Source: a virus | Length of the DNA stretch: 48,487 nt | IMG/VR virus record: IMGVR_UViG_3300031962_000005 | Span: 1-48,487 of that record | Reading direction: 5' to 3' (one strand) | Shown: piece by piece, positions 4,448 to 35,250 of the stretch | Layout: each line of letters opens with the position of its first letter | Numbering within the stretch: the stretch's first letter is position 1 | Notes under the pieces: generated by a model | What the model was told of the DNA's origin: nothing | Databases searched by the model: none | The model's input: only the letters and a program-made list of their open reading frames with translations | Translations under genes and position numbers: made by a program

Positions 4448-6303
4448 GCAGACGCCTCTTCTCTTGCCAACCGGTCGTGATATTGGCGGCGCCATTGCAA
4501 GGAAAGAACCGGGATTGTCTCGTCAGGTTTCTTGGGCTTCGAAAGGCCGAACGTTTTGGCGCATTTCCAGCTCAGCGCATCGGCTATGACAACGTCCGCG
4601 TGATTGACTCGCGCACCAGATGGGTCATTGGTCGAAGTCTCAGCGCTATGCTCAATGTACCCGCGCTTGTCATAGCGAAACGCCAAGCAATCGCCCAATG
4701 CCTCCCGAGAGCGATTAAGGAACTGCCGACTGTGCAAGGCAGCACGGTAATCTTCGAGCAAGGCCCGCTTGTTGTTCGGGCTCGCGTACCAGCCCGGAGC
4801 CTCGGAGGCGTCGGCGAACTCCTTGAACTCGTCGGTCTTGAAGTAGACGTTCCGGTACCCCAGCTCCATGAATCGCTTCCCGAAGGTGTAGCCCGGTCCA
4901 GGCACTTCCCAGGCAACCAGGGCCGGCTCGCCATGATCGGTCGAGAACAGCCAGCCCAGGGCCGCGACCAGGACCGCGAACTTCTCGGGGAGGATATGCG
5001 GGTTCCGGTACTCCATGACCTTCTCGCCCGTCGAGCCGCAGGTAACCGAAGCGCAGGAAGGCGTGGCGCCCGAGCCGGTCGAGATGTCGCAGCCGATGCC
5101 GTAATTATCCCGCCTCGGACGCGGGCCATGGAAGGAAGAGCCGTCGCCCCCCTGGTCCGTGAGGGTGCACCACAGCTTAAGTGCACCACCCTTTGTCGGG
5201 ACAAGGGAGAGGGGGCGGCCAGAATCCCGGTCGAAATGAATGTCCCCCTCCCAGTACGGCTCGGCGGCGAAGGTGGTTTGCAAGGTGAGGATCATAAGCC
5301 GGTCGAAGAACTGACTAACCGATCCCTTGGGATCAATATCCAGATCCATGGCAATGGCACGCGCAGAGCCCTTACGCCGGCACTGCTCGTCGTACCAAGG
5401 GCTGCGAACCCCCGGGAAGGGGCCGCCGGTCGGGCTGCCGTCCATGACAAACCGGTAGTCAGCAGGATATACGAACGACTTGTCAAGAGCCGTAACCTTG
5501 CCTGCCTCGGGGTCATAGCGGTAAAGCCCCTTTCGCTTGTCGGGATGACTCGTCCAGTGCATCACCAGCTTGCGCATGTCTACGCGCTGCGTTATTTCAT
5601 AGGCGGCTGTAGCCAGGCCCGTATGAGTGAAATTAAAGATGCGGCATCCAGTCGTGTCCGACGTTCGATGCAGGACTTCAAAATCCTCTTCGATTTGGCT
5701 GAACTCGTCAATTCCCATTGCCGTAGCGCGGCCGCCAACGCCAGCCTTTCCCGTTGACGCCTGTCCTGTCGCGACCGATCGATTGGTGATGTTGCCACGG
5801 TACATTTTCTTTTTTTTGAGCCTGGGTTTCATCCAGTCCGGCAAGTTCTCAAATATGAAGTCCCACTTCCAAAGCAAGCTGTCCGGATCGTCCGACTCGA
5901 CCGCCTCGGCATTACGGCTGATAAACAAAAACTTGTTCCAGCCGTGAAAGAGCCAGAGCCAGAAGAAGACGATCACCAGCATCCACGAAGCGCCCATCTC
6001 CCTTGACTTCTCGATGCACAGGTCCTCGTCCTCCTCTATCGAGTCGAGCATCACCCGGAAGGCGTCGTCCTGAAAGTCCCAGGGAATGAAAGGCCCGACC
6101 TGCCCTATCCCCTTCTTCCTGGGGTTGAACTGCCAGACAAAGATGGCCACGAAGAAGATGAGGTCCTGACGGCACATCTCGAACAGGCCGCGCTGTAGCA
6201 ACCGATCGGTAAGGCAGGCCTTGAGGATCGCCACCCGCCACTCAGCCACATTCTTCCGGGGCCAGCGCGGCACCAGGGCGTGCCACTTACCAGGAGATAA
6301 CAT
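4444..6303 (-). CDS. terL: Terminase large subunit
   Basis: 619 aa. This is the packaging motor ATPase and headful or end-cutting nuclease, acting at the portal. The N-terminal ATPase has EKSREMGASW (98-107) in the adenine-binding/Walker A position and a Walker B MGIDEFS with D199-E200. A Lys/Arg-rich stretch is at 160-175. The RNase H-like nuclease domain begins at YGIGCDIS (D406), followed by VAWEVPG (E466) and NHADVVIADAL (D570, D575), the usual acidic triad. Start ATG at 6303 has GGAGGAAG and overlaps the 58-aa zinc gene by 17 bp. The C-terminal stop overlaps the inserted HNH gene. Confidence 0.95.
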   Translation of the reverse strand: MLSPGKWHALVPRWPRKNVAEWRVAILKACLTDRLLQRGLFEMCRQDLIFFVAIFVWQFNPRKKGIGQVGPFIPWDFQDDAFRVMLDSIEEDEDLCIEKSREMGASWMLVIVFFWLWLFHGWNKFLFISRNAEAVESDDPDSLLWKWDFIFENLPDWMKPRLKKKKMYRGNITNRSVATGQASTGKAGVGGRATAMGIDEFSQIEEDFEVLHRTSDTTGCRIFNFTHTGLATAAYEITQRVDMRKLVMHWTSHPDKRKGLYRYDPEAGKVTALDKSFVYPADYRFVMDGSPTGGPFPGVRSPWYDEQCRRKGSARAIAMDLDIDPKGSVSQFFDRLMILTLQTTFAAEPYWEGDIHFDRDSGRPLSLVPTKGGALKLWCTLTDQGGDGSSFHGPRPRRDNYGIGCDISTGSGATPSCASVTCGSTGEKVMEYRNPHILPEKFAVLVAALGWLFSTDHGEPALVAWEVPGPGYTFGKRFMELGYRNVYFKTDEFKEFADASEAPGWYASPNNKRALLEDYRAALHSRQFLNRSREALGDCLAFRYDKRGYIEHSAETSTNDPSGARVNHADVVIADALSWKCAKTFGLSKPKKPDETIPVLSLQWRRQYHDRLAREEASA

Positions 6304-7937: not shown

Positions 7938-8267
7938 ATGACAAGCGAACAGGCCGTCCAGATTTACGCTGCTGAGGCCCAGGCCGCCGAACAGCTACGT
8001 CAGGATGCGGCGAGAGTGATAGCTGCTGGCGATAAATATTTGGCCGACGGCGCGCTGGCCACAAGCGCAGAGGCCAACGCGGCCGCCGAACGTGAGGACG
8101 CGCTGACCGAGATGCGCATCCACCACGACGCTATCTGTCGCCGGCCAGAGCGCGCCGCGTCCAAGGCGTACCGCGAATGGCTGGAAACGCATCCCGGCGA
8201 TCACGACGGCGCAAACGATGCCAGTTATGCTGCGTACCAACGACGGGCAGCTGGGGACGCATCATGA
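7938..8267 (+). CDS. Hypothetical early protein behind structured leader 1
   Basis: 109 aa from ATG at 7938, which has AAAAAGGAG; an in-frame start at 7902 would lie inside the leader stem. Ala/Glu-rich and largely helical (EAQAAEQLRQDAARVIAA...). The end contains LETHPGDHDGANDASYAAYQRR. No family recognised. Its strong promoter and pseudoknotted leader suggest high, controlled expression early in infection. The stop overlaps the next ATG (ATGA). Confidence 0.75.
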   Translation: MTSEQAVQIYAAEAQAAEQLRQDAARVIAAGDKYLADGALATSAEANAAAEREDALTEMRIHHDAICRRPERAASKAYREWLETHPGDHDGANDASYAAYQRRAAGDAS

Positions 8268-8491
8268 ATTTCCTAGATAACGCCATGGGCCATTTTCTCG
8301 ATGATTTCAGGCTGCTCCTGCGCGTGGAAAAAATCTTCGCGCGCTACGTCGCGGAAGGCAAGAGGCCAACGCGCGACGAGGCCAAAGCCTGGCTCGAATC
8401 GCTCGGCTGGAAACCGCATCCGCTGGCCAATATGCTGCGCCAGTGGGGGTATGAGGAACCACCAACCCCGCCCCAAGGGGCGGAAATCTGA
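8264..8491 (+). CDS. Hypothetical early protein
   Basis: 75 aa from ATG at 8264, coupled by ATGA to the preceding gene, with GGGGA upstream. A helical start (MNFLDNAMGHFLDDFRLLLR) is followed by RPTRDEAKAWLESLGWKPHPLANMLRQWGY, which resembles a small helical domain, and a Pro-rich tail. Function unknown. Confidence 0.7.
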   Translation: MNFLDNAMGHFLDDFRLLLRVEKIFARYVAEGKRPTRDEAKAWLESLGWKPHPLANMLRQWGYEEPPTPPQGAEI

Positions 8492-8505
8492 AAGGGGAAA
8501 ATGCG

Positions 8506-8748
8506 ATGACCACGAAATTCGACCTCTACGAGGTCAAAAGCCACGAGCGACACAACACCCCGGATGCTCGTCAAAAGGTCATGACCGGAACTGCCGAAGA
8601 GGTCCTGAAATACTACCAGGAATTAGGACACACTCTCCGTGTGGATCGCGGGTGGCTGGTGTGTGACGCGGGAGCCGACTCCGATACGTGCGTCGGCGTC
8701 ATGTCATGGATGGACGGCCTACCTTCTAGCGTTCTGGAGTCGTTCTAA
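8506..8748 (+). CDS. Hypothetical early protein
   Basis: 80 aa with AAAGGGGAAAA before the ATG. The motif ARQKVMTGTAEEVLKYYQELGH and the later RGWLVCDAGADSDTCVGVMSW suggest a compact alpha/beta fold. No family recognised. It stands alone between short intergenic spacers in the early block. Confidence 0.65.
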   Translation: MTTKFDLYEVKSHERHNTPDARQKVMTGTAEEVLKYYQELGHTLRVDRGWLVCDAGADSDTCVGVMSWMDGLPSSVLESF

Positions 8749-8782
8749 CGTCGGCCTGGGAAAAAATAAAAAGGGGATTACG

Positions 8783-9217
8783 ATGGCGACCAAAACAACT
8801 TTCAGCGGCACGGTGTACGGCAGCATTCAGGACCCGCGAACGGCGGACTCTTTCCTGAAAGTTATGGGATGCCAGGACGGCTCTATTGTCGTCGCGTGGG
8901 GTAACGCGCTGGAAAGTGCGGAAGAAGGCGATGAAATCGTATTTGGTGGAGGCGGCGATGGGGAAAACGGCTACGAAGTCATGATCGATGCTGATACGGT
9001 TCAGGTCGCCGGCCGCTACATCGTCGAATCGTTTTTCGAGACTCTGGACAGCAGCGAGTGGCAATTCCGAGAAAACGGCGACGTGTTCGCGGGCCTGACT
9101 CAAATCGGACATATTGGTGACGACGGCACGGTCAGCACGACTAGCGCTCTGGATGAATGCGGCGTGACCTGGGACGTAATAAATGACCTGATTCAGCGCG
9201 TGAAAGGTGCGGTGTAA
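8783..9217 (+). CDS. Hypothetical acidic early protein
   Basis: 144 aa from ATG at 8783, which has AAAGGGGATTACG upstream; the open frame extends back to 8639 but only as a shadow of the preceding gene. Strongly acidic with a Gly-rich centre (EIVFGGGGDGENGYEVM) and probably beta-rich, the kind of composition seen in small phage inhibitors and DNA mimics. That comparison is by charge only. Confidence 0.7.
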   Translation: MATKTTFSGTVYGSIQDPRTADSFLKVMGCQDGSIVVAWGNALESAEEGDEIVFGGGGDGENGYEVMIDADTVQVAGRYIVESFFETLDSSEWQFRENGDVFAGLTQIGHIGDDGTVSTTSALDECGVTWDVINDLIQRVKGAV

Positions 9218-9419
9218 CATAAAAACCGAACCAGAAATCTTCGCCGAACGCAACGCGCTTCTCTCAGATTTAGCCACACCATGCACCTGCACGACTGCGA
9301 AAACACGCGCGGCGTGTGCACGGAAGCGGAGGGACATTGCGGCAGCCGCCGTGGCCCTGACGTGGGTAATAGATCGGCACGGCGAAAAGTTGCCGAGAAC
9401 ACAGGAGAAACAGAAATGA
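9207..9419 (+). CDS. Hypothetical small protein, Ala/Arg-rich
   Basis: 70 aa from GTG at 9207, overlapping the end of the preceding gene by 11 bp. It has a CTCTTAKTRAACARKRR segment followed by an Ala-rich helix and a basic tail. The ribosome site is very close to the start, so the true start is uncertain. The TGA overlaps the ATG of the 12-codon ORF at 9416-9454, which supports translation. Confidence 0.5.
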   Translation: MRCNIKTEPEIFAERNALLSDLATPCTCTTAKTRAACARKRRDIAAAAVALTWVIDRHGEKLPRTQEKQK

Positions 9420-9454
9420 ACGAAAGCGGACCCAAAGCGCCCAGGAGGGAATGA
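9416..9454 (+). CDS. 12-aa leader peptide candidate
   Basis: MNESGPKAPRRE and stop, with AGGAG upstream and an ATGA overlap with the preceding gene. Its own 3' end contains the AGGAGG that serves the GTG start of the next gene at 9458, three bases after this stop. This would couple translation of the downstream gene to reading of the peptide. No independent evidence that it is translated. Confidence 0.35.
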   Translation: MNESGPKAPRRE

Positions 9455-9457
9455 GCT

Positions 9458-9664
9458 GTGCCTGAGTATTACCTATTATCGCACGGAGTACGATTTTGCC
9501 GGTTTGCCTCCCTGGAGGAGGCCAAAGCGGCGGCTCTCAAGTGGGGGTGCCAGATTGGCACCTACACTTACGAAGAAATTGCGTGGCTAGACTCTCCGGA
9601 GCGAGAGTCACAATTGCGTGAGGCCAGCAATTTTTACTCGATCCCGTGCCGATTTACGCCGTGA
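9458..9664 (+). CDS. Hypothetical early protein
   Basis: 68 aa from GTG at 9458 with a strong CAGGAGGG ribosome site. The sequence MPEYYLLSHGVRFCRFASLEEAKAAALKWG suggests a small alpha/beta domain (a strand pair followed by an EEAKAAA helix) of a type often seen in short phage proteins. Function unknown. It ends this transcription unit; the next 254 bp hold a promoter and leader 2. Confidence 0.7.
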   Translation: MPEYYLLSHGVRFCRFASLEEAKAAALKWGCQIGTYTYEEIAWLDSPERESQLREASNFYSIPCRFTP

Positions 9665-9750
9665 CATCCCTCCGCACGTCACGATGGGGACGCGCCCCGC
9701 GATATATCCCGACCGCGTGTGAAATTTTGGAAAATATTCCGCAACCGGTC

Positions 9751-9778
9751 TTGACGTTTTAAAGCGCCGTGGTAATCT
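9751..9778 (+). promoter_or_regulatory. Early promoter upstream of structured leader 2
   Basis: TTGACG (9751-9756), 16-base spacer, TAATCT (9773-9778). The start would fall near 9785, thirteen bases before the first strand of stem A in leader 2. The preceding stretch 9665-9750 holds only a short GC hairpin (GGGGACGCGCCCC) and AT-rich sequence. Confidence 0.6.
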
Positions 9779-9797
9779 TTCTTTCGTTCTCCAAGCC

Positions 9798-9893
9798 GCA
9801 CCCGGAGAAGCAAACAGATTTACAACCGAAGCCACGACCGCCGCCCCGGCAATTCTTGTCCGGGTGCAAATGGAGCTGACCGGGGGGCGGTCG
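9798..9893 (+). promoter_or_regulatory. Structured 5' leader 2 with interleaved stems (predicted pseudoknot)
   Basis: Stem A is GCACCCGG (9798-9805) with CCGGGTGC (9860-9867), 8 of 8 pairs. Stem B is CGACCGCCgCCCCGG (9835-9849) with CCGGGGGGCGGTCG (9880-9893), 14 pairs around a single bulged G. The strands interleave as in leader 1, and again stem B is the longer one with a G defect between its two halves. An A-rich loop joins A and B. Then a pyrimidine/purine tract with AAGGAGGGG precedes the ATG at 9919. Confidence 0.7.
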
Positions 9894-9918
9894 CTTAAAA
9901 CCCCCAAGGAGGGGCCGC

Positions 9919-10413
9919 ATGCCTGACCAACTCGGCGACCTCAAACAAGCGCTCGCCAAGGAATTCTCTGATCTAACCCCCCTCAAGGCGAAGGAGCTGG
10001 GCCTTTGCCTTCATTGCCGGCAACCGGCGCTGGCGCGCTGCCGCACCGACGCGGGCAAGCGCGAATACCAAATCAGCGCCCTCTGTGAAGTCTGCTTCGA
10101 CCAGATCACCAGCGAAGATTACGAGCCGCCCCTTCCCTTCGAGCTACAGCCCGAGGGGTGCCGCCTGCCGGGGAATTTACTGTTCGCGCTGCGCCGCTAT
10201 GTGCGCTACCAGCACCCACCCGGATATTTCCTGCTCGCGTGCCTCCAGAACGACCTGGCTGCCGCGTGTCAGCGCGCCGATGCGCAGTCGATCGAGTGCT
10301 TGTGCGAGGTAATGTTGTTCATTTACAAATTGCCGGAGCGATGCTGGGGGGACGCGGAGAAGGTAAAGCGCTGGCTCATCGCCCACGAGCCGGCCCGGGA
10401 GTCGGAGCGCTAG
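9919..10413 (+). CDS. Phage protein with paired zinc knuckles and a conserved helical domain
   Basis: 164 aa. CLHC (residues about 30-33) and CEVC (about 56-59) form a probable treble-clef or zinc-ribbon site. The second half, RRYVRYQHPPGYFLLACLQNDL through RCWGDAEKVKRWL, matches a pattern I know from many phages (GRYVxxGxPTGxFLxAVLxNDL ... CWGSxxKxxxW), for which no function is established to my knowledge. Strong AAGGAGGGG ribosome site; translation is likely governed by leader 2. Confidence 0.8.
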   Translation: MPDQLGDLKQALAKEFSDLTPLKAKELGLCLHCRQPALARCRTDAGKREYQISALCEVCFDQITSEDYEPPLPFELQPEGCRLPGNLLFALRRYVRYQHPPGYFLLACLQNDLAAACQRADAQSIECLCEVMLFIYKLPERCWGDAEKVKRWLIAHEPARESER

Positions 10414-10464
10414 GATTCAGCCCGGGGCTTGTCGCCCTGGAATTCTCTAATGGGGAGTAAACTC

Positions 10465-10806
10465 ATGAAACTGCTTGGAGTTGGATTGGTGCTGGCGCTG
10501 GCTATCACGGCCTTCGCCACCGATGTAAAGGCCGGCCTTCTGTTTCACCATCGCCGCAGCGCCAGTGCCGCCTGCGCCGTCCCGGCCGTGAGTTGCGCCG
10601 GCAGCGCCGTCATCGTGCAAAAGGAAATGATCCCGCCCCCGCCAGGAGCCATGGCCGCGCCTGTCGTGGTCGCCGCGCCCGTGGCTGCTTGCACGGGGGC
10701 CGTGGCGGCTTGCAGCGGAGCGCGCGTTCGCGCTGCCGGCTGTTCGGGGCGGGCTGGACTGTTTCGCGGGGGCCTGTTCCGCGGCCGTCGCGCTTGCGGC
10801 GGTTAA
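10465..10806 (+). CDS. Small secreted Ala/Cys-rich protein, planctomycete-like
   Basis: 113 aa from ATG at 10465 with TGGGGAG upstream. A clear signal peptide is seen (MKLLGVGLVLALAITAFATD, likely cut after VKAG near residue 24). The mature part is low-complexity, rich in Ala, Val, Cys and Pro, and ends LFRGGLFRGRRACGG. Short secreted proteins with such GRRxCGG ends are, to my knowledge, frequent in Planctomycetes. It may be a gene acquired from the host, acting in the periplasm or at the surface. No phage family recognised. Confidence 0.75.
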   Translation: MKLLGVGLVLALAITAFATDVKAGLLFHHRRSASAACAVPAVSCAGSAVIVQKEMIPPPPGAMAAPVVVAAPVAACTGAVAACSGARVRAAGCSGRAGLFRGGLFRGRRACGG

Positions 10807-10815
10807 GTCTCGTAC

Positions 10816-10901
10816 GTACTTGGCCGGGAACGTGAGTCCGTACATCGCTCACTGGTCCCAGGGATCGGGCTCCCGGCCAAGTGCTTCTTATCCCCGGTCC
10901 C
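10816..10901 (+). promoter_or_regulatory. Structured 5' leader 3 with interleaved stems (predicted pseudoknot)
   Basis: Stem A is ACTTGGCCGGGA (10818-10829) with TCCCGGCCAAGT (10871-10882), 12 of 12 pairs, extendable to 10816/10884 through a T-G pair. Inside it lie a small hairpin GTGAG/CTCAC (10832-10852) and the 5' strand of stem B, GGGATCGGG (10861-10869). B pairs beyond A with CCCGGTCCC (10893-10901), 9 pairs with one wobble. No clear promoter precedes it, so it may act within an operon. The Sak4-like start is 19 bases after stem B. Confidence 0.7.
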
Positions 10902-10919
10902 AACCAAGAAAGGAAACCA

Positions 10920-11840
10920 ATGGCTGCCACCGTAATCCAGCCCCACGAAGGCATCGAAGTAAAACACATTTGCGCCCTGATCTACGGCCAGCCCGGGGCG
11001 CGCAAATCCTCATTGTGCCAGACCGCCGACAATCCGATAACGCTGGCATTCGATCAGGGCATCTACCGCGCCTTCTCCAGAAAGACGGCCGTGCTGTTCG
11101 ATTCGTGGGCCGATGTAATCTCCTTTGACCTCCGGCCATACCGAACGATCGTCGTCGATACGATTGGGATGGCGCTCGAGAAACTGATGGCCACGATCAT
11201 CGCCGCCTCCCCCAAGAACGGCAACCGCATGGGAGGGATGAGCCTGCCTGGCTACGGCATCCTCAAAACTCAATTCGCGTCCTGGGTCAGCTCGATCCGG
11301 GAATTGGGAATCGACCTCGTCTTCACCGCGCACGAGAAGGGCGAAAAGCTGGGCGACGAGACCTATCACTGCCCGGAGATTGTCGGGGGCTCGTACGCGA
11401 CGGTGATGAATGTCTGCGATGTCGTGGGTTACTGCCATTTCGAGGGCGGGAAAAGAGTGATCGACTTCGCCCCGAGTGACCGCTTTATGGCCAAAACTCC
11501 ACCGTGCGGCTGGACACAGCTCCTCCTCCCTGACTTCGCCTCAAGCCCTGACTTCCTGGCAAAATTACTCGCCGACGCCAAAGCGTCGATGGGCAGAGTG
11601 AGTGAAGAGTCGGCCAAAATAGCGGGACTGGTCGAAAGCTGGAGAGAGTGGCTGGCGTCCGATCCATCGTTGGCGCAGGTCAATGCACGCATCACGGCCG
11701 AATTCCCGAACATGGACAAGACGGCAAAACCGCAAGTCTGGAAGCTGGTAACCGAGACCATGACCAGGGCCGGGGTGTTGTGGGACGCGCAAGCGAAAGC
11801 GTTCAAGGCCCCAACGGTTCCTTTGGGGGCATCGGCATGA
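10920..11840 (+). CDS. Sak4-like RecA-fold ATPase (single-strand annealing recombinase)
   Basis: 306 aa from ATG at 10920, with AAAGGAAA upstream. Walker A is GQPGARKSS (23-31), Walker B is TIVVDT (76-81), and VFTAHEKGEK resembles the sensor region of RecA-like phage recombinases. Sak4 proteins bind ssDNA and anneal it during phage replication and repair, usually beside an SSB or exonuclease. Here a zinc-ribbon gene and a RecB-like nuclease follow, each overlapping by 4 bp. Structured leader 3 lies directly upstream, suggesting translational control, perhaps autogenous. Confidence 0.87.
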   Translation: MAATVIQPHEGIEVKHICALIYGQPGARKSSLCQTADNPITLAFDQGIYRAFSRKTAVLFDSWADVISFDLRPYRTIVVDTIGMALEKLMATIIAASPKNGNRMGGMSLPGYGILKTQFASWVSSIRELGIDLVFTAHEKGEKLGDETYHCPEIVGGSYATVMNVCDVVGYCHFEGGKRVIDFAPSDRFMAKTPPCGWTQLLLPDFASSPDFLAKLLADAKASMGRVSEESAKIAGLVESWREWLASDPSLAQVNARITAEFPNMDKTAKPQVWKLVTETMTRAGVLWDAQAKAFKAPTVPLGASA

Positions 11841-12694: not shown

Positions 12695-13612
12695 ATGAAA
12701 TGGAATCGTTTCGCCGAGCGCTTCCCGATGCTGGTCGGGGAGGAGTGGAAGACTTTCAAGGCCTCGATTGCCGCCACCAAGGGCAACATCGAGCCCGTCG
12801 TCTACCGCATGGTGAAGGGCAGGCGCGAGGGGATCGACGGCCGCAACCGCTTTTTGGCGTGCCAGGATCTCAAACTTAAGTGCAAATTGCGCCAGATCGC
12901 CCTGCGCGACGACGAAGTCAAGGCTTACATCATCGTCCGCAACCTGACGCGCCGGCACCTCACGCCCGAATTCCGCCAGGAGCTGGTCGCCGAGCTCCAC
13001 GCCGACGGCAAGACCCTCCGGGAAATCGCCGCCGTCCTGGGCATATCGACCGGCACCGTGCAAAGGGACCTGGGCGCGCCAAATGGCGCGCGCACCGCGC
13101 AGAACCCAGGGAAAACTGGATCGTCAAAAACCTATTGCCCCCATTGTCAGACGCTCCTGCGCAAAGGGCTCCCGCCCAAGAAAAACTGTCCCATGTGCCG
13201 TGAGGAAAACACAGGACCAAAGAAGAAGAAGCGTAAGGGCGCCCGCGAAGTGCCGGTCGATGCCGCCGGGAGCGAGGTCCCGCCGCGCTGCCGCGATGCT
13301 TTCTGCGATCCCTGGGTGCAGTCCTCCATCGACTTTCTCGGGACCACGCTGGCCTCTTTCTGGCAGGAGCGCCTGGCGGACGGCATGGCCAAGCGCAAGA
13401 AACATTTCCCGTTCTTCGAGGTAAAAGACTTCACGGATGGAGTCGGGTTCGCCGGCAATTACCTTGAGCAAATCCTGGAGCACCTGAAAGCCAACAGGCC
13501 CGCCTTTGTCTGTCCCTTGTGCGCCGGCCGTGGCTGCCCGACGTGTCGGATGTCGGGCCTCGTCCCCAGGGACCTTTTTAAGAAGCTGGAGAAGGCCCAT
13601 GCCCATACCTGA
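12695..13612 (+). CDS. ParB-like protein with HTH, zinc ribbon and an inserted palindromic element
   Basis: 305 aa. N-terminal ParB/Spo0J-type segment with GIDGRNRFLACQDL (about 46-59) and YIIVRNLTRRHLT; HTH at about 105-126 (KTLREIAAVLGISTGTVQRD); zinc ribbon CPHC ... CPMC (about 148-171); a Lys-rich linker; a C-terminal domain with CPLCAGRGCPTC. Residues 127-140 (GAPNGARTAQNPGK) are encoded exactly by a 42-bp dispersed palindromic element, between HTH and ribbon. Likely a DNA-binding replication or transcription regulator. AGGAG before the ATG; the end overlaps the helicase gene by 14 bp. Confidence 0.8.
   Translation: MKWNRFAERFPMLVGEEWKTFKASIAATKGNIEPVVYRMVKGRREGIDGRNRFLACQDLKLKCKLRQIALRDDEVKAYIIVRNLTRRHLTPEFRQELVAELHADGKTLREIAAVLGISTGTVQRDLGAPNGARTAQNPGKTGSSKTYCPHCQTLLRKGLPPKKNCPMCREENTGPKKKKRKGAREVPVDAAGSEVPPRCRDAFCDPWVQSSIDFLGTTLASFWQERLADGMAKRKKHFPFFEVKDFTDGVGFAGNYLEQILEHLKANRPAFVCPLCAGRGCPTCRMSGLVPRDLFKKLEKAHAHT
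13074..13115 (-). repeat. Palindromic element inserted in frame in the ParB-like gene
   Basis: The reverse complement of these 42 bp is identical to 35181-35222, 22 kb away in the late block. It contains the same GCGCGCC-AAA/TTT-GGCGCGC palindrome and TTTTCCCTGGG end as the copies at 801-917 and 33355-33420. It adds 14 codons without a frameshift, in a likely linker. Confidence 0.9.
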
Positions 13613-17513: not shown

Positions 17514-18410
17514 ATGACCCACCAAGAACTAATCGACCTGGATGGAAAGATGGTCCTCCGCGTCTTTCCAGGGCGCACGAAAGCGACCCCAGACGACGAA
17601 GGCGCTCGCTTTGGACCTCCCGGACTATTCGAGGAGGCTGACGAAATCCATATCTCTGTGACATTTACTTGGCACAGGGAATTGGCGGAGCAACTGGGCG
17701 CCGCATGGGAGAGGATAGCGCCGGTCAAGATTGGCGGGGTCGGCTGGAGAACGAAGGAGCAACCCTTCGGCGATCCGGGGGCCGAGTTTGTCCCCGGTCG
17801 TTATGTGAAGCGCGGCTATGTGTTCACCAGTCGCGGCTGTCCGAGAAAATGCAAGTTCTGCTCGGTACCACTGCGAGACCCATTAGTAAGGCTACTACCT
17901 ATCGTGGATGGCTGGAACATCCTGGACGATAACCTTTTAGCCTGCCCACGCCGCCACGTCGAAGCCGTGTTCTCCATGCTCAAGAGGCAAAAGCGACGAG
18001 TGGAATTCACGGGTGGCCTAGAGGCTAAATCTCTGAAGGATTACCAGGTTGGCCTTCTCGCTGACCTCAGTCCGCCACCGTCGATGTTCTGGGCTTACGA
18101 TCCGGGCGACCCTTTCGAGACATTGAAGAGCGCGGCTGACCGTATGTGGGCGGCCGGATTGTCGAAGAAAACACATCGGGTGCGATGTTACGTGCTGATC
18201 GGGTTCCCGGCCGAAGTATCTGAAGACGAACGTCCGGACACGTTTGAAGCTGCCGAGAGGCGATTAGAGCAAATGGTGTCTATCGGCTTCACCCCAATGG
18301 CCATGCTTTACCGGCCAGAGATTGCCGGGAATTGGCGGCCCGACCCGGAATGGCGGAGATTTCAGAGGCGTTGGGCGCGCCCGGCAATCATTCATGCGAG
18401 ACAAGTGTGA
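17514..18410 (+). CDS. Radical SAM protein
   Basis: 298 aa. SRGCPRKCKFCSVP (106-119) holds the CxxxCxxC cluster ligands C109, C113 and C116 for the 4Fe-4S/SAM site. GWNILDDNLLAC, VEFTGGLEA and RCYVLIGFP are conserved features of a radical SAM subfamily found in bacteria and phages. The substrate is not known; nucleotide, tRNA or protein modification are all possible. Residues 1-10 (MTHQELIDLD) come from a 27-bp repeat shared with the next gene. The native start is probably Met13 (17550, MVLRVFPGRTKATP). The stop overlaps the next GTG. Confidence 0.85.
   Translation: MTHQELIDLDGKMVLRVFPGRTKATPDDEGARFGPPGLFEEADEIHISVTFTWHRELAEQLGAAWERIAPVKIGGVGWRTKEQPFGDPGAEFVPGRYVKRGYVFTSRGCPRKCKFCSVPLRDPLVRLLPIVDGWNILDDNLLACPRRHVEAVFSMLKRQKRRVEFTGGLEAKSLKDYQVGLLADLSPPPSMFWAYDPGDPFETLKSAADRMWAAGLSKKTHRVRCYVLIGFPAEVSEDERPDTFEAAERRLEQMVSIGFTPMAMLYRPEIAGNWRPDPEWRRFQRRWARPAIIHARQV
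17515..17541 (+). repeat. Direct repeat, copy 1, at the start of the radical SAM gene
   Basis: TGACCCACCAAGAACTAATC plus GACCTGG, 27 bp. It differs from 18408-18434 at one base (C versus G at position 8). It encodes THQELIDL just after the ATG. Two near-identical copies 893 bp apart flank the radical SAM gene. Confidence 0.9.
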
Positions 18411-18919
18411 CCCAGCAAGAACTAATCGACCTGGCCCACCAGCGTGGCGGCAAAGTCGGCAAGAGCATGGCGGAAGCCATGGAGGAAGGCGGGGCCGTCC
18501 ACGGGACCTCCTGCCCGGTTGTCGCCGGCAGTGGCACCTCGGCGGCACGCGGACGGTCCCGCCACACTCCAGGCCCCAAAGCACGAGCCCGCCCTGTACG
18601 CCATGAACCGGGGCGCATGAACAAGACCGAAGCGGCGCACGCCCGCTGGCTCGACTTTCAAATTCAACTTGGAGAGGTGACGGCCTATTGGTTCGAGTCG
18701 GTCAAGTTGCGGTTGGCGGATAAGACGTGGCTTGTCCCCGATTTTCTCGTAATGCTTGCCAACGGCACGCTTCAGTTTGAGGAAGTGAAAGGCGGCTTCG
18801 TCCGTGAAGACTCGATTATAAAGCTCAAGGTTGCCGCCTCAATGTATCCTCTCTTTCGTTTTGTCCTTTGCCAGAAGAGCAAGAGCGGCTGGACCTACAG
18901 CACCGTCTCTGCCAAATGA
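18407..18919 (+). CDS. PD-(D/E)XK endonuclease-like protein (DUF1064-type)
   Basis: 170 aa from GTG at 18407 (GTGA overlap). N-terminal 70 residues are Gly/Ser/Arg-rich and look disordered. The C-terminal domain, EAAHARWLDFQIQLGEVTAYWFE then LVPDFLVMLANGTLQFEEVKGG, has the E ... PDF ... ExK arrangement of the DUF1064/endonuclease-I-like family of phage Holliday-junction or branched-DNA nucleases. A start at Met70 (MNKTEAAHAR) would give the bare domain. It would resolve replication intermediates with the SF2 helicase and recombinase. Confidence 0.8.
   Translation: MTQQELIDLAHQRGGKVGKSMAEAMEEGGAVHGTSCPVVAGSGTSAARGRSRHTPGPKARARPVRHEPGRMNKTEAAHARWLDFQIQLGEVTAYWFESVKLRLADKTWLVPDFLVMLANGTLQFEEVKGGFVREDSIIKLKVAASMYPLFRFVLCQKSKSGWTYSTVSAK
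18408..18434 (+). repeat. Direct repeat, copy 2, at the start of the DUF1064-like gene
   Basis: Matches 17515-17541 in 26 of 27 bases and occupies the same position relative to the start codon (GTG here, ATG there). It encodes TQQELIDL. The pattern suggests that the radical SAM segment entered at, and duplicated, the 5' end of this gene. Confidence 0.9.
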
Positions 18920-18926
18920 GGCCTCC

Positions 18927-19169
18927 ATGGTTTTGCCTGACTTGCCCGTAATCCCAGGCGTTGTTATCGATCACGTCCCCGGCGCCACTGGCTACGCAGC
19001 CGCGACGGATGGCACGATCTGGTCTTGCCTTGGGTTAGGGCCGCGATTCAAGAATCTCCAGCCCTGGAGAATGCTGGCGGCCAACCATGCGCAGTTAGCA
19101 CGGGACTACGGCGTCTCGACGATGATGATCTACTTCATTGGGACCGGCAAGAACTGGAGAGCCTCATGA
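18927..19169 (+). CDS. Internally deleted homing-endonuclease-like protein (NUMOD4 plus HTH, no HNH)
   Basis: 80 aa. The N-terminus VIDHVPGATGYAAATDGTIW matches NUMOD4-type domains (IPGYxGYxVSxxGxVWS) of phage HNH endonucleases. The C-terminus HAQLARDYGVSTMMIYFIGT followed by GKNWR resembles the HTH that ends such enzymes. The HNH core that normally lies between, about 60-80 residues, is absent. It may be a DNA-binding remnant or a domesticated regulator. ATG at 18927; the stop overlaps the next ATG. Confidence 0.65.
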   Translation: MVLPDLPVIPGVVIDHVPGATGYAAATDGTIWSCLGLGPRFKNLQPWRMLAANHAQLARDYGVSTMMIYFIGTGKNWRAS

Positions 19170-19372
19170 AAACCGAACTGCGTCTTGCCCCGCACTCCCA
19201 GATACACGGCGCCAACGTCGTCGAACTCTGGCACGAGGGGAAACTGATCGGCACCGTCACGGGCGCCGACGGTCCGGGCTGCCGGGTGATCTCGAAATTT
19301 CCCTTGGGTTATTTGCTCTTTCACGATTGTGGAGAGCCGTCTGTCCTGGAAGTGGATATAAAGGTCAGGTAG
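19166..19372 (+). CDS. Hypothetical early protein
   Basis: 68 aa from ATG at 19166 (ATGA overlap). Beta-rich (VVELWHEGKLIGTVTGADGPGCRVISK), reminiscent of short phage proteins with an antiparallel sheet. No family recognised. It is the last gene before the large non-coding structured stretch. Confidence 0.65.
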   Translation: MKTELRLAPHSQIHGANVVELWHEGKLIGTVTGADGPGCRVISKFPLGYLLFHDCGEPSVLEVDIKVR

Positions 19373-19380
19373 GAAAGCAA

Positions 19381-19405
19381 GCAGCCGGGGTGTAGCCCCG
19401 GCTGC
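19381..19405 (+). terminator. Perfect 10-bp hairpin after the 68-aa gene
   Basis: GCAGCCGGGG pairs with CCCCGGCTGC around TGTAG. It lies 8 bases after the stop codon, as a terminator would, but no T-tract follows. It may instead be the first stem of the structured region beginning here. Confidence 0.5.
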
Positions 19406-19950
19406 AAGCCCGATATCGAACGCTTGATTAAGCACATTCTATCGGGCTTCCCCGAAAAAATCAAGACTCCCCCATGAAGGGGGTTATACCCAACGTTGGG
19501 AAACGTCCTGCTCCGTGGAGACAGGTGCCTAACCCCTAGTGGTCACTCCGACAGGGACCGATGCAGAACACACGGCCCGGAAGTGTGACATGGCCCGGCA
19601 AGCGCTGCCGGCTGAAATACGCCGGAGGGGTTGCCTGGAAGGCCCGCACACTCGCGAAGGAAGGCAAAGTTAGTCCGCCGGCCGATTCATGGAGTAGGCG
19701 CGTAGGCGCCCAAGCCGGCGGCGATGGCTGAGGAACCCGGAGCCGCAAGCTCCGGCAGGGACCGTTCCGAGGGCCACAGACCTGGACTGGCAACCCCGTG
19801 CCCGCTCCGGCCGACATGGGGCTCCAGGCGAAAGCCCGGAAGGGATGGTTCGGCGTCTCCCAACTGGTGACGCCTACTGCGGGCCACCGATACCAAAAAC
19901 TCGCGGGGTACCTTAACCCCCGGTGCGCGCCCACCGCCTCGGGAGACGAA
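19406..19950 (+). ncRNA. Candidate large structured non-coding RNA
   Basis: About 545 bp without a convincing gene, crowded with stems: AAGCCCGATA/TATCGGGCTT (19406/19440), palindrome CCCAACGTTGGG (19489), CCTGCTC/GAGaCAGG (19507), AACCCCT/AGGGGTT (19531/19626) enclosing GGTC/GACC, CACAC/GTGTG and CCGGCA/TGCCGG, CCGCCGGC/GCCGGCGG (19675/19714) enclosing GGCGC/GCGCC, GGAAC/GTTCC (19732/19764) enclosing CCGGAGC/GCTCCGG, GGCGTC/GACGCC (19852/19869), CACCG/CGGTG (19885/19921) enclosing CGGGG/CCCCG. CAGGGACCG occurs twice (19552, 19756). Size and multi-branched layout recall phage-borne giant RNAs such as GOLLD and ROOL, or a catalytic intron; no family was matched. Confidence 0.65.
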
Positions 19951-19953
19951 GAA

Positions 19954-20223
19954 ATGCCCAAGAAAGACCAAAGACGGGACTATGACGGTCGCTACCAGAA
20001 GAAGCCAAGCTATGCCGGGAAGAACCTGCGCCAGGGCAAAATCACCCCGGCAGAGGTAGAGAACTTCTCTCGCCGTAGGAGGCCGGAGAGAGAAGCCCTG
20101 GTGCAGTGCTGGCGATGCAACAGGGTGATGCTCCTTGATCCGGACCGAGGCATGCTGCGGATGTCGTGCCGGTCGTGTGGCGGTAACGTGGAAGTGTTGA
20201 CAATCGACGGCATTCCTCAGTGA
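19954..20223 (+). CDS. Zinc-ribbon protein with basic N-terminus
   Basis: 89 aa from ATG at 19954 with GGGAG upstream. A Lys/Arg-rich N-terminal half is followed by CWRCNRVMLLD ... MSCRSCGGNVEVL, a four-Cys ribbon (about residues 52-75). Probably a nucleic-acid-binding protein. It is the first gene after the structured region, which could be its leader. Confidence 0.7.
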   Translation: MPKKDQRRDYDGRYQKKPSYAGKNLRQGKITPAEVENFSRRRRPEREALVQCWRCNRVMLLDPDRGMLRMSCRSCGGNVEVLTIDGIPQ

Positions 20224-20243
20224 GTGCCCGGCAGGAGAGAGCC

Positions 20244-20369
20244 ATGCGCCGAGAGGATTACGAGAGGATGGGGGCGCCTTGGCATGTGGTGCGTAACGAG
20301 AGCATCACTTGTGTCGAGTCAAGAGTGCTGAAGGTGGTGACGCTCCCCGAAATAGAGTGCATACCATAA
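20244..20369 (+). CDS. 41-aa small protein
   Basis: Reads MRREDYERMGAPWHVVRNES and continues to LPEIECIP. CAGGAGAGA lies about 6 bases before the ATG at 20244. It fills the gap between the zinc-ribbon gene and the 90-aa gene without overlap. Amphipathic; no family recognised. Confidence 0.55.
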   Translation: MRREDYERMGAPWHVVRNESITCVESRVLKVVTLPEIECIP

Positions 20370-20385
20370 CCCCGAGGAAAGACCA

Positions 20386-20658
20386 ATGCTATCCGCCGAA
20401 GAAAAGGCCCTGTGGACAAGGCCGGAACTGGCCCTTGACGTGATCGAGAAAGCCGGCATCCTGTGCGACAACGAGCAATACCGGAAGCTGCCGGAACTGC
20501 CGGCACTCTGGAAAGCAATCACGGCCTGGAGAGAGTTTGTCGAGAAAGTGAAGGAGGAGCAACATGCGCAGAAGAAGAACCTGCGTGAGTCGATCAAGGA
20601 CGCGGAAAAGGATTTCTCCGCCCAGACCAGGGAAAGAGCGCCCAAGGGAGATTCGTGA
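20386..20658 (+). CDS. Hypothetical helical coiled-coil protein
   Basis: 90 aa with CGAGGAAAGACC before the ATG. The second half is a long charged helix (FVEKVKEEQHAQKKNLRESI...) suggesting a coiled coil. No motif. It leads into two small membrane genes at the end of the early block. Confidence 0.7.
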   Translation: MLSAEEKALWTRPELALDVIEKAGILCDNEQYRKLPELPALWKAITAWREFVEKVKEEQHAQKKNLRESIKDAEKDFSAQTRERAPKGDS

Positions 20659-20705
20659 GCTATGGTTGTCCTGGACAGCGCTTTGGTCTTTCGAGAGGTT
20701 TTGCA

Positions 20706-20918
20706 ATGTCTTCGGAATCGAAAACGAAAGTGACGTGGAGGGAGGTCGGGGCCGGGCTGTGCATGCTGTACAGCCTGCTCACGAGTTTCGCCTTCATCGT
20801 CTTCAATTACCAGTTCGCACAGACTCACTCCTTCTTGGAGTGGGTAGCTGCCATGATTTTCTGGCTGCCCATCAAGGCCTTCTTCTGGCCGATCTTTATC
20901 TTCCTGGGGGCCCTTTGA
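20706..20918 (+). CDS. Small two-TM membrane protein
   Basis: 70 aa from ATG at 20706 with GAGAGG upstream; the frame stays open to 20655 without a better start. TM segments are at about 14-33 (AGLCMLYSLLTSFAFIVFNY) and 42-68 (WVAAMIFWLPIKAFFWPIFI...). It overlaps the next gene (TGATG). A membrane pair at the distal end of an early operon could be superinfection-exclusion or lysis proteins; not decided by sequence. Confidence 0.7.
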   Translation: MSSESKTKVTWREVGAGLCMLYSLLTSFAFIVFNYQFAQTHSFLEWVAAMIFWLPIKAFFWPIFIFLGAL

Positions 20919-21163
20919 TGAATATCCTTCAGAAGAGGATCGCCTGGGCAGCGGTGAGCGTGCTCATTCTCATGACCTTCGTCGTGCCCTGGCGCAGAAC
21001 TGTGCAAGGAAACTCTATTCCGACCGGCTACGGCTTCATCTTCGAGCCGCGCTACGTGGATGGCACCAAGATCGCCAGCGTCGATGTCGTGCGCTGGCTG
21101 GTGCCGATGATGGTGACGGTTATCGCTGGGCTGACTGCGATCCGGCTGACTGCCGAGCGCTGA
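20918..21163 (+). CDS. Small membrane protein
   Basis: 81 aa from ATG at 20918. TM at about 10-26 (AWAAVSVLILMTFVVPW) and a second at about 59-75 (RWLVPMMVTVIAGLTAI), with a polar segment between them (GYGFIFEPRYVDG). Its end overlaps the 3' end of the 2065-aa gene on the other strand by 44 bp; early and late transcription collide here with no terminator between them. Confidence 0.68.
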   Translation: MNILQKRIAWAAVSVLILMTFVVPWRRTVQGNSIPTGYGFIFEPRYVDGTKIASVDVVRWLVPMMVTVIAGLTAIRLTAER

Positions 21164-24100
21164 TCCGCCTCACTTCCTCGAGCGCCCTTCTGGCAATGTC
21201 GCGCTGCCTGTCCCGCAACTGTTCCTGCACGTTCTCAAGAGGGGCCGGGCCAGAGATGAGGCGGTTGCCGGAAGGGCGCAATCCATTGAGAGCATGATCT
21301 ATCTGGAGCATGGCCTGGTGGGCGTGGCTCACGACCTGGTACTCCTCCTCCCTCTCGAAAGACTGCACATGCCGCAGCGCGTGCGCTCTGGGGCCGGCGA
21401 GTTCGCTGAATAGCCTGTTTACGTCATGGACGTAGCCTCCCGAGATGCGCATGCCGTAAGGCCCGGCCGCCTGGTTCAAGCTCTCTCCCCATGTCCCCTG
21501 ACGGTGCGGCTCTTGGCCAGTGAGGAGCGAGCTGACCGGGTTCCCGAGGAGGAGCGGGTTGGCGTTGCGGATGGCGGCGCGCAGGTTGAGCATCCTCTGA
21601 CTTTCTCCAGGCTCCGCTTTCTCGGCCACGTTCATGCCGATCATGTTGCGGCCCGTCAGGGTGGTGTGCGAGAAGGACACAATAGGGCCCGCTCCGACGT
21701 GCATCCAGCTATCCACGAAGTTATCGAAAGTCTTGTCGGCGATCTGTCCCGCCATTTGACCCCTCGGCAAGCCTTCCGACATAGCCATGAGCCCGAGCTG
21801 GCGCATGCCGCGGCTAAGACCGGTTAGCGACATGAGGCCAAAGGAATGGGTGTAGCCGTCCTTGTCGGTGTAAATCTTGATGTTCCCGAACGGCGTGTTG
21901 TCGTCCCCTCCCGGCCGTCCCCAGAGCAGATAATTCGTGAGCCACACTCCCCCCGTAAGCAGGGCCAAAGTCTTCCCCAGCATCTCGGCCCGCATCTGCG
22001 CCGCCGCGCGGAAGCTGGTCGCATCGGCGCCGGGGTTCATGGTGACCGCGCGTACGCCCTGAATGGCGTAGTTGCTGCCGGCCGTGGCGAAGGGTCCAAT
22101 CTGCGTGTCCCTGAGCCAGACGATGAACTTCTGCTGCGCCTTCTTCAAGTATTGCCCGAGCTGGTTCACGAAGTCGCGGCGGTTGGTCTCGGTGTTGACC
22201 ACGAGCCCTTGCCTGTCCATGCGGCTAAAGGCATCGTCAAGCGTGAGGCGCATGATCTTCTGGGCGAAGTCGAGGAACCTCCCTCCCCAGTGCAACGGGT
22301 CGAACCTCCTTAAGCCCTGGTTCGCCAGCTCCCCCATCTCGATCCCTTCCTCCTTCATGGCGCCGATCCTGGCCAGCTCAACCAGCCTCTGCGTCGCCCA
22401 GGGCTGCTTGGTGAAGACCCCGTAGACGTTGCTCACGAAATCCTGGGGCCTCACTCCCGGCTTCATGAGAGCAGTCAAGAGGTTCTTGGTGTGCGTCATG
22501 ACCTCGACGCTCGAAAGCAAGGTCGCCCTGGTGAAGATCGGTGCCAGATCGCTCACTACCGGTATCCGCGCTGGGTCTTCTAGCTGGAGCGCCTGGTGAA
22601 CTTCGGGGTAGGCGTCTTCGTGGACCGCCAGGGCGGTCTGGTTCTTCTTGGCTGCCTGGGTGAAGCGCGGCGGGCTCACGCCCGGGATGATGCGCGCGCC
22701 TTCGACCTTGGCGCCCGGCTTCTCCCAGCTCGCCACCCCGTTCTCGACGGCCGTCCGCATGAATTCCGCCTTGGCGGCCTGGGTGGTGCCGTGGACCAGG
22801 CTGTTCTCGATGATGGCCCCCAAGTCAAGATCGTAGGCGTCGGCCGTGCCCGTGGCCTGCTCGGCGAACTTAAGCTTGCCGAGCTTGACGCGCCGTAGAT
22901 CGCCGCGGGCCGTGGTGAAGACTGTCGTGGGGCCGGCGCTCTCGGCGCTGACCGGCTTTAAGTTGACCGGGGAGCCGGGAATCTGCGTGAAGCTGCTGAT
23001 GGGGTCGCTCTCTTCAAGGCCCTGCGCGCGGCGGAAGTTGTCCTCCATGGTCGGCACGAACTCTCTCTCCCAGTTGCGCAGCATCTCTTGAATCTTGGGC
23101 GACTGGAGCGCCGACCGGTAGGCGTCAAAGCTTTGGAAGGGCGAGCCTTGCTTGCCGATGATCGAGGTGACGGCCTGGGCGGCGGCCTGGTCGCCGGCCT
23201 GGCGGTAGGCTTGCTTCATGTAGCGCAAGCGCCGCTCGGTAAGGACGGCGCCGGCGATGAGCCGGTCTTGCGGACTCGCCTTGGGCCCGAGCACCTTGTC
23301 GATGAACATGGGGGTTTGCATGCGGGCGTAGACCGGCGCCGCGTTCATCCGGGTCAAGGCTTCGCCCGTCTCCCGGTCGAGGCGCGTCGTGGTAGGCGCC
23401 ATCTTGCCGGCGAGCTTCGAGAACTCTTCGCGGACATAGCGGACGTATTTTTTGAGGCGCTGGCCATGGTGAAGGGCGAACTCACGCAAGCGCTCCAGGT
23501 CGAGATGGCCGCTTTCGTCCTGGACGAAATCCTTGACTGCCTCCTTGAGCTGGGCGTCTATTCCTCCTGGTCTTGGCTCTCCTCCTCCTGGGGCGGAGTC
23601 GCGTTCGAGGTCGGCTGGATTGAACTCTCCGGGGATGGCTCTGGCTGGCTCGTGGGCATCGCCCCTGGTATCGGCGGGGCCTTGAGCTTGGGTTTGGGCC
23701 AGTTCTTGAGCAGCTTCCTCAGCCGAGCGCTGTGCGCTCTGGCTACTGCCAGCTTCGTGGCCGTCGCCTTCAGCTTTGCCAATTTGCGTTTTGGTGATTC
23801 CTGCCCGGGCAGCATCTAGGGCCTCCTTTAGTAGCTGGCGCTCAAGGCGCCTGGCCTCGTGTTCGAAGTTGTTGTTAAGGTGAGCCGCCTTCTGGCGGAT
23901 TTGCTCCAAGAGCCAGTCATGGTGATGGCTGGACTCGGGCGTCTTGATCTCTCCCGCCCTGTTCATCTCCTCGGCCAGCTCATCCATGGGCCTTTGCCCG
24001 GAGCGCAGCTTGCCATCCTTGCCAAAGCCTTTGAAGAGGCTCGGGATTTCCCTCTCGAGCGCCACCACGAACTCACGGCCATAGAGGCCGATCGCGCTTT

Positions 24101-33354: not shown

Positions 33355-33420
33355 CTTTTCCCTGGGATTTAAGCGCGCCGCGCGCCAAATGGCGCGCCGA
33401 CCCCGCTTTTCCCTGGGATC
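33355..33420. repeat. Palindromic element, one 51-bp unit plus partial second
   Basis: CTTTTCCCTGGGAT begins at 33355 and again at 33406, the same 51-bp period as at 801-917, with the palindrome GCGCGCCAAATGGCGCGCC. The bases before it, AAAATAGCG, also match those before 801. The repeat fills the gap between the phosphatase and the next gene; its end touches that gene's stop at 33419. Confidence 0.9.
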
Positions 33421-35154: not shown

Positions 35155-35179
35155 TGACAAAGACTCCTGAGAAAGCTCA

Positions 35180-35250
35180 CTTTTCCCTGGGTTCTGCGCG
35201 GTGCGCGCGCCATTTGGCGCGCTCATTTTCCTCGGCGGCGAACTTTTCCT
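35180..35250. repeat. Palindromic element covering the end of the nozzle gene
   Basis: TTTTCCCTGGGTTCTGCGCG and the palindrome GCGCGCCATTTGGCGCGC (35205-35222); 35181-35222 is identical to the reverse complement of 13074-13115. A diverged second TTTTCCTTGGG follows at 35244, about 63 bp on. The nozzle gene ends at 35223, at the edge of the palindrome, so its last codons (RIATQGKVRRRGK) fall in this element. Confidence 0.85.

Follow-up and report, generated by a model that had tools for sequence, protein, structure and literature searches.

A candidate small antisense RNA gene facing the early operon of related, uncultured phages

A 48,487-bp IMG/VR virus record (the window, i.e. the whole stretch of DNA analysed) carries, at the left end of a 581-nt non-coding region, a minus-strand promoter closely followed by an intrinsic terminator, and the same arrangement is seen in eight related phages. 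Judging from the sequence, we consider it probable (roughly 60%) that this pair is an undescribed gene for a small antisense RNA of about 57 nt, a cis-antisense unit similar to lambda OOP that would restrain early transcription. The proposition that the promoter and terminator form a conserved transcription unit appears well supported by the comparison of relatives; that the unit functions as a limiter of early transcription is what we infer.

In the window, early genes run rightward from approximately 7.9 to 20.9 kb and late genes run leftward. From the stop codon at 19372 to the ATG at 19954, open reading frames and codon scores yielded no credible gene, in line with the original prediction; codon scores of 19373–19760 were negative in every frame, which speaks against a protein-coding remnant there, and the longest open frame in the region, on the minus strand, also had a negative score. 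The genes on both sides of 19373–19953 appear complete. On the left is an early gene of 68 aa (19166–19372, plus strand), for which searches of Pfam and PHROG gave no match; its stop codon (19370–19372) abuts the terminator of the antisense RNA, and its kin in the related genomes G017 and G032 occupy other places within the early operon. On the right is the next early gene (19954–20223, plus strand), an open reading frame for a zinc-ribbon-like protein of 89 aa with a sub-threshold match to Anti-TRAP. The early operon further includes genes for a Holliday-junction-resolvase-like nuclease (18407–18919, plus strand; phrog_190, E = 1.6e-13) and for a radical-SAM-like protein (17514–18410; phrog_9298, E = 3e-17), the latter present in G002 too, and a second long non-coding gap of 701 bp (9218–9918) with a promoter-like TTGACG-17-TAATCT near 9752.

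The antisense promoter is of the sigma-70 type (TTGATT-17-TAGAAT, 19464–19436, minus strand, directed against the neighbouring genes), as judged by sigma-70 rules that are assumed and may not be the host's, and it is the only promoter-like site on either strand within 18900–21200. Its −35 hexamer, TTGATT (19459–19464, minus strand), aligns with TTGACG of G032 and with the promoters of other relatives, and the −10 hexamer is TAGAAT (19436–19441, minus strand); the spacer between them holds a palindrome, CGGG-4-CCCG (19443–19454), with a GAGAA-like core on the minus strand. About 30 nt downstream of the −10 begins an intrinsic terminator hairpin, GCAGCCGGGG-CTACA-CCCCGGCTGC followed by TTGCTTTCC (19381–19405, minus strand), which combines a 10-bp GC stem with a T-rich tail. 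On the early strand, no T-run follows this hairpin, and promoter-like sites are absent from its vicinity. The predicted RNA of about 57 nt (19373–19429, minus strand) follows from the promoter and terminator positions, its start being set 7 nt after the −10 and its 3′ end at the T-rich tail; a 58-nt fold of it gave z = −4.4. It would end at 19373, right past the stop codon of the 68-aa gene, and overlap no coding sequence in the window.

Dense stems had originally been described over some 570 nt. Hairpins do exist, including two perfect ones of 10 bp (19381–19390/19396–19405 and 19406–19415/19440–19449), but the excess of structure is limited to 19373–19464, the first ~90 nt. The whole 581 nt folded with z = −3.0 (plus strand) and −3.7 (minus strand); among 200-nt windows, only the first showed an excess (z = −4.8/−4.4), and those from 19423 on ranged from +0.3 to −2.1 on the plus strand and from −0.4 to −2.8 on the minus strand; the background level of the genome is about −0.3 ± 1.2, and some windows in it reach −5. 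With the first 92 nt removed, the remaining ~490 nt folded near the shuffled level (z = −1.1 for the minus and −0.9 for the plus strand); local 6-bp stems numbered 13 versus 11.4 expected (p = 0.36), and long-range 7-bp complements 27 versus 13.4 expected (p = 0.03). Two further features noticed at the outset were borne out: the 12-bp palindrome CCCAACGTTGGG is perfect, and the 9-base motif CAGGGACCG is indeed used twice, at 19552–19560 and at 19756–19764 (both plus strand), within 15-nt copies at 19546–19560 and 19750–19764. The complement of the first copy, GGTCCCTGTC, resembles by eye a GTCCCTnTC block common to G016 and G022, a resemblance that is not significant alone. The strongest fold excess in the window is at 801–1000 (z about −5 on both strands), where short repeats occur, and copies of a ~45-bp repeat are dispersed over the genome (window about 13075–13120, 35178–35225, 802–906 and 33356–33398).

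The region had been likened in scale to GOLLD, ROOL or a ribozyme or intron, with no known core motif recognized in it. The latter observation agrees with Rfam, which gave no match in the window at gathering score, including the covariance models of GOLLD, ROOL, OLE and HEARO, and only chance-level matches in 19300–20000 at E up to 10. The likeness to GOLLD and ROOL lies in the size of the non-coding interval and the phage setting; here, however, there is no Rfam match, excess structure, covariation or nearby tRNA, and an RNA of that kind is not supported. A group I or II intron likewise finds no support, as there is no Rfam match to a catalytic core and the flanking genes look complete, and an ornate RNA, ribozyme or intron of 450–570 nt is unsupported given near-chance folding outside the antisense unit and no excess covariation. 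A TIGR-Tas array was also rejected: the Tas protein is absent from the window and a tandem array from the region. The notion of an undescribed RNA at this place survives as a likely RNA gene, but one of ~57 nt, on the opposite strand and at the left end only.

Relatives were collected by terminase alignment, which gave 80 viral loci; 17 related genomes were taken first and 7 later, and a simple home-made program served to call the genes in them. No DNA-level relatives were found in phage and plasmid records, and no terminase relatives in bacterial genomes. One of the related genomes, G032, proved similar to the region at its left end: the comparison with the window over a ~105-nt unit scored 64, versus 18.4 ± 2.9 for shuffled sequences (0 of 2000), and beyond this unit there was no homology (27 vs. 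25.6). The promoter of G032 (TTGACG-18-TAAAAT) and that of the window are each the best promoter-like site of their own neighbourhood. When the gaps between genes in 18 genomes were scanned for a promoter with a strong terminator no more than 110 nt behind it, 10 matches were returned, 6 of them at the syntenic place (the window, G005, G016, G017, G018 and G032). Sequence inspection added units in G006, G022 and G024, of which those in G006 and G022 scored as well. Antisense promoter-terminator pairs were present in 8 of the 9 elements, compared with a mean of 0.3 of 9 after shuffling and 4 of 57 other gaps. The counts for nine are partly circular, since three of the units (G006, G022 and G024) came from visual inspection once the scan had been run. 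The outer 7 pairs of the terminator stem form in 63 of 63 cases, i.e. in all nine phages, with 9 different sequences (0 of 500 shuffles) and 32 cells altered on both sides; this pairing count is not independent, the stem arms having been selected by complementarity.

Conservation of the promoter extends beyond the hexamers to the spacer motif and the initial region, and the RNA body has almost no sequence common to the phages. The −10 reads TAGAAT in G005, G016, G022 and G024, TAAAAT in G017 and G032, TAACAT in G006 and GATACT in G018; the weak elements are this last one and the −35 of G022 (TAGAGG). The GAGAA-like core of the spacer is found in most relatives and is absent in G024, and the spacer is palindromic in the window, G005, G006, G022 and G032. 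Searching 18 genomes for TTGA, a GAGAA-like core in the spacer and TANAAT produced one non-coding site each in the window, G005, G016, G017 and G032, in every case the unit, and none elsewhere in the non-coding DNA of the 18; across 48 records, the matches to a related pattern were confined to four units, those of G005, G016, G017 and G032, and the reversed pattern matched nothing. Pattern matches in the AT-rich phages L154 and L156, and in the coding part of an RNA-phage replicase-like gene in L157, were judged to be chance occurrences unrelated to the unit. L154 (3970–4290, plus strand) and, equivalently, L156 (2370–2690) contain an RNA-like region of ~280 nt, bounded by a promoter-like site and a AGCCCTTCGGGGCT terminator. 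The region includes a segment resembling a T-arm (GTGGG..TTCAAAT-CCCAC), and its closing stem shows compensatory differences between L154 and L156; neither Rfam nor ARAGORN matched the region.

In the window and its eight relatives, the unit is opposed to the early operon, mostly near the far end of that operon. It lies no more than 2.4 kb downstream of the VRR-NUC gene in 7 of the 9 relatives that bear this gene, and in the window the place of VRR-NUC is taken by the Holliday-junction-resolvase-like gene. In G007 and G002, the nuclease gene is present and the unit was not found; in G024, the late operon is a long way from the unit, and the search for a VRR-NUC gene gave none. In G016 and G017, the early and late operons converge directly on the unit, as would be expected of a device that serves solely to end operons, the terminator stopping minus-strand late transcription and the promoter being incidental or a roadblock to early read-through. 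We regard such a device as quite improbable: further early genes intervene between the unit and the late operon in the window, G005, G022 and G006, and the promoter is conserved in the parts named above.

Some of the relatives carry features of interest in their own right. A TIGR02996 domain, which is typical of planctomycetes and hence a hint at the hosts of the related phages, is encoded in G002 (L006, 7049–7636) and G007 (5679–5804), and the window has none. In G032 (L129), a gene for a TIGR-Tas RNA-guided endonuclease (8965–10989, minus strand; NF052498, E = 2.6e-42) adjoins the antisense unit; an intein-like insertion separates its Tas segments, and arrays of ~18–20-nt repeats (GAGCG.A.GCCA) with variable spacers of ~8 nt lie on both sides (about 8150–8950 and 10670–11330).

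The unit is flanked by 240–790 bp of non-coding DNA in every relative; in the window, the adjoining stretch spans 19465–19953 and is no more structured than expected. Blocks of this stretch are kept between the closest relatives only (G016/G022 over ~550 nt, z = 26; G018/G022, z = 50; G005/G006, z = 33). The overall similarity of the window to the adjoining stretches of G016, G018 and G022 is not significant; by eye, the window contains look-alikes of two blocks of relatives, namely GTCCCTGTC and GCGCGCA..GGTTAAGG..CCCCGCGAGTTTT, the latter a weak match to block A of G016, G018 and G022 (19893–19932, minus strand). Scans with two of the blocks, A and C, retrieved only phages of the set that were already known. 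Global alignment of the long adjoining element was poor, and no result is based on it.

The persistence of a non-coding stretch beside the unit in all nine phages, the blocks kept between close relatives, the A-rich early strand in all nine and the mild enrichment of long-range complements in the window would suit a large structured RNA, of GOLLD/ROOL-like scale and spanning 19373–19953, that the small antisense RNA regulates in the manner of ColE1 RNA II/RNA I or hok/sok-type systems. ColE1 RNA I is a small antisense RNA whose promoter lies internally and which faces the 5′ portion of some 550 nt of non-coding sequence, and the position of the predicted RNA is similar. Unlike ColE1 RNA II, however, a long RNA here would lack a dedicated promoter on the early strand, conserved structure and a conserved G-tract: in most relatives, both strands of the adjoining stretch folded at about the level of chance (the early strand of G006, at z = −4.4, is the exception), pairwise and three-way alignments gave no excess covariation, and G-runs occur in G005 and G016 only, the G-rich tracts that an R-loop would use thus not being conserved. 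Together with the lack of an Rfam match, this makes a large regulated RNA rather unlikely.

Blocks of non-coding DNA conserved without RNA covariation, and inverted repeats on both sides of the promoter in several phages, point to another possibility, a replication origin or other DNA-level control region at which the antisense promoter regulates initiation, as pO does near ori-lambda, where an opposing promoter lies beside the origin (PMC3985674). This, too, seems unlikely: direct repeats are enriched in G022 and G024 only, DnaA-like boxes are not consistent, the window has no GC-skew turn at the region, and the unit is not always adjacent to replication genes. The adjoining 240–790 bp could have a regulatory function or serve as an origin. 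We entertain, tentatively and with considerable doubt, a single conserved control module that comprises the unit and these 240–790 bp and includes either a fast-evolving long RNA or an origin.

The closest precedent for a small antisense RNA gene in this position is lambda OOP, whose transcription starts at pO, proceeds leftward to tO and covers 52 bases of cII (PMC5869508). OOP acts by antisense pairing in a manner dependent on RNase III, and the activity of pO influences both read-through from pR and replication in the vicinity of ori-lambda (PMC3985674). Shared with OOP are a short leftward RNA of less than 100 nt, its own promoter directed against the early operon, its own intrinsic terminator and a position at an early gene's 3′ end (PMC5869508; PMC3985674). 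By contrast, the predicted RNA lies wholly beyond the stop codon, it has no Rfam family match, and no cII or O was recognized nearby; as the RNA does not, in the window, extend into the 3′ end of the coding sequence of a regulator like cII, we do not file the unit as OOP.

Under the antisense reading, host RNA polymerase would synthesize the ~57-nt RNA from 19429 to 19373, and this RNA would be complementary to, and pair with, the early transcript just past the stop codon of the 68-aa gene. The opposing polymerase would limit the read-through of early transcription, both into the non-coding stretch and into the genes that follow it, much as lambda pO-oop-tO opposes pR. That the RNA body is poorly conserved fits a cis-antisense role, since such an RNA stays complementary to the local transcript however its sequence changes, and a changing body with a retained promoter and terminator fits either cis-antisense action or transcriptional interference, neither of which needs a fixed sequence.

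These observations correct an interpretation in which a GC-rich spacer was taken for a giant RNA and suggest, in its stead, a small antisense RNA gene that is recognizable across highly diverged phages by its position, its promoter and a terminator stem whose arms are complementary in every case. The exact predicted 5′ and 3′ ends are usable for a search in existing metatranscriptomes. If the control module is real, an opposing promoter would balance early transcription against replication in this group of uncultured phages; on the antisense reading that we favour, the OOP-type arrangement described in lambda would extend to a separate group of uncultured phages.
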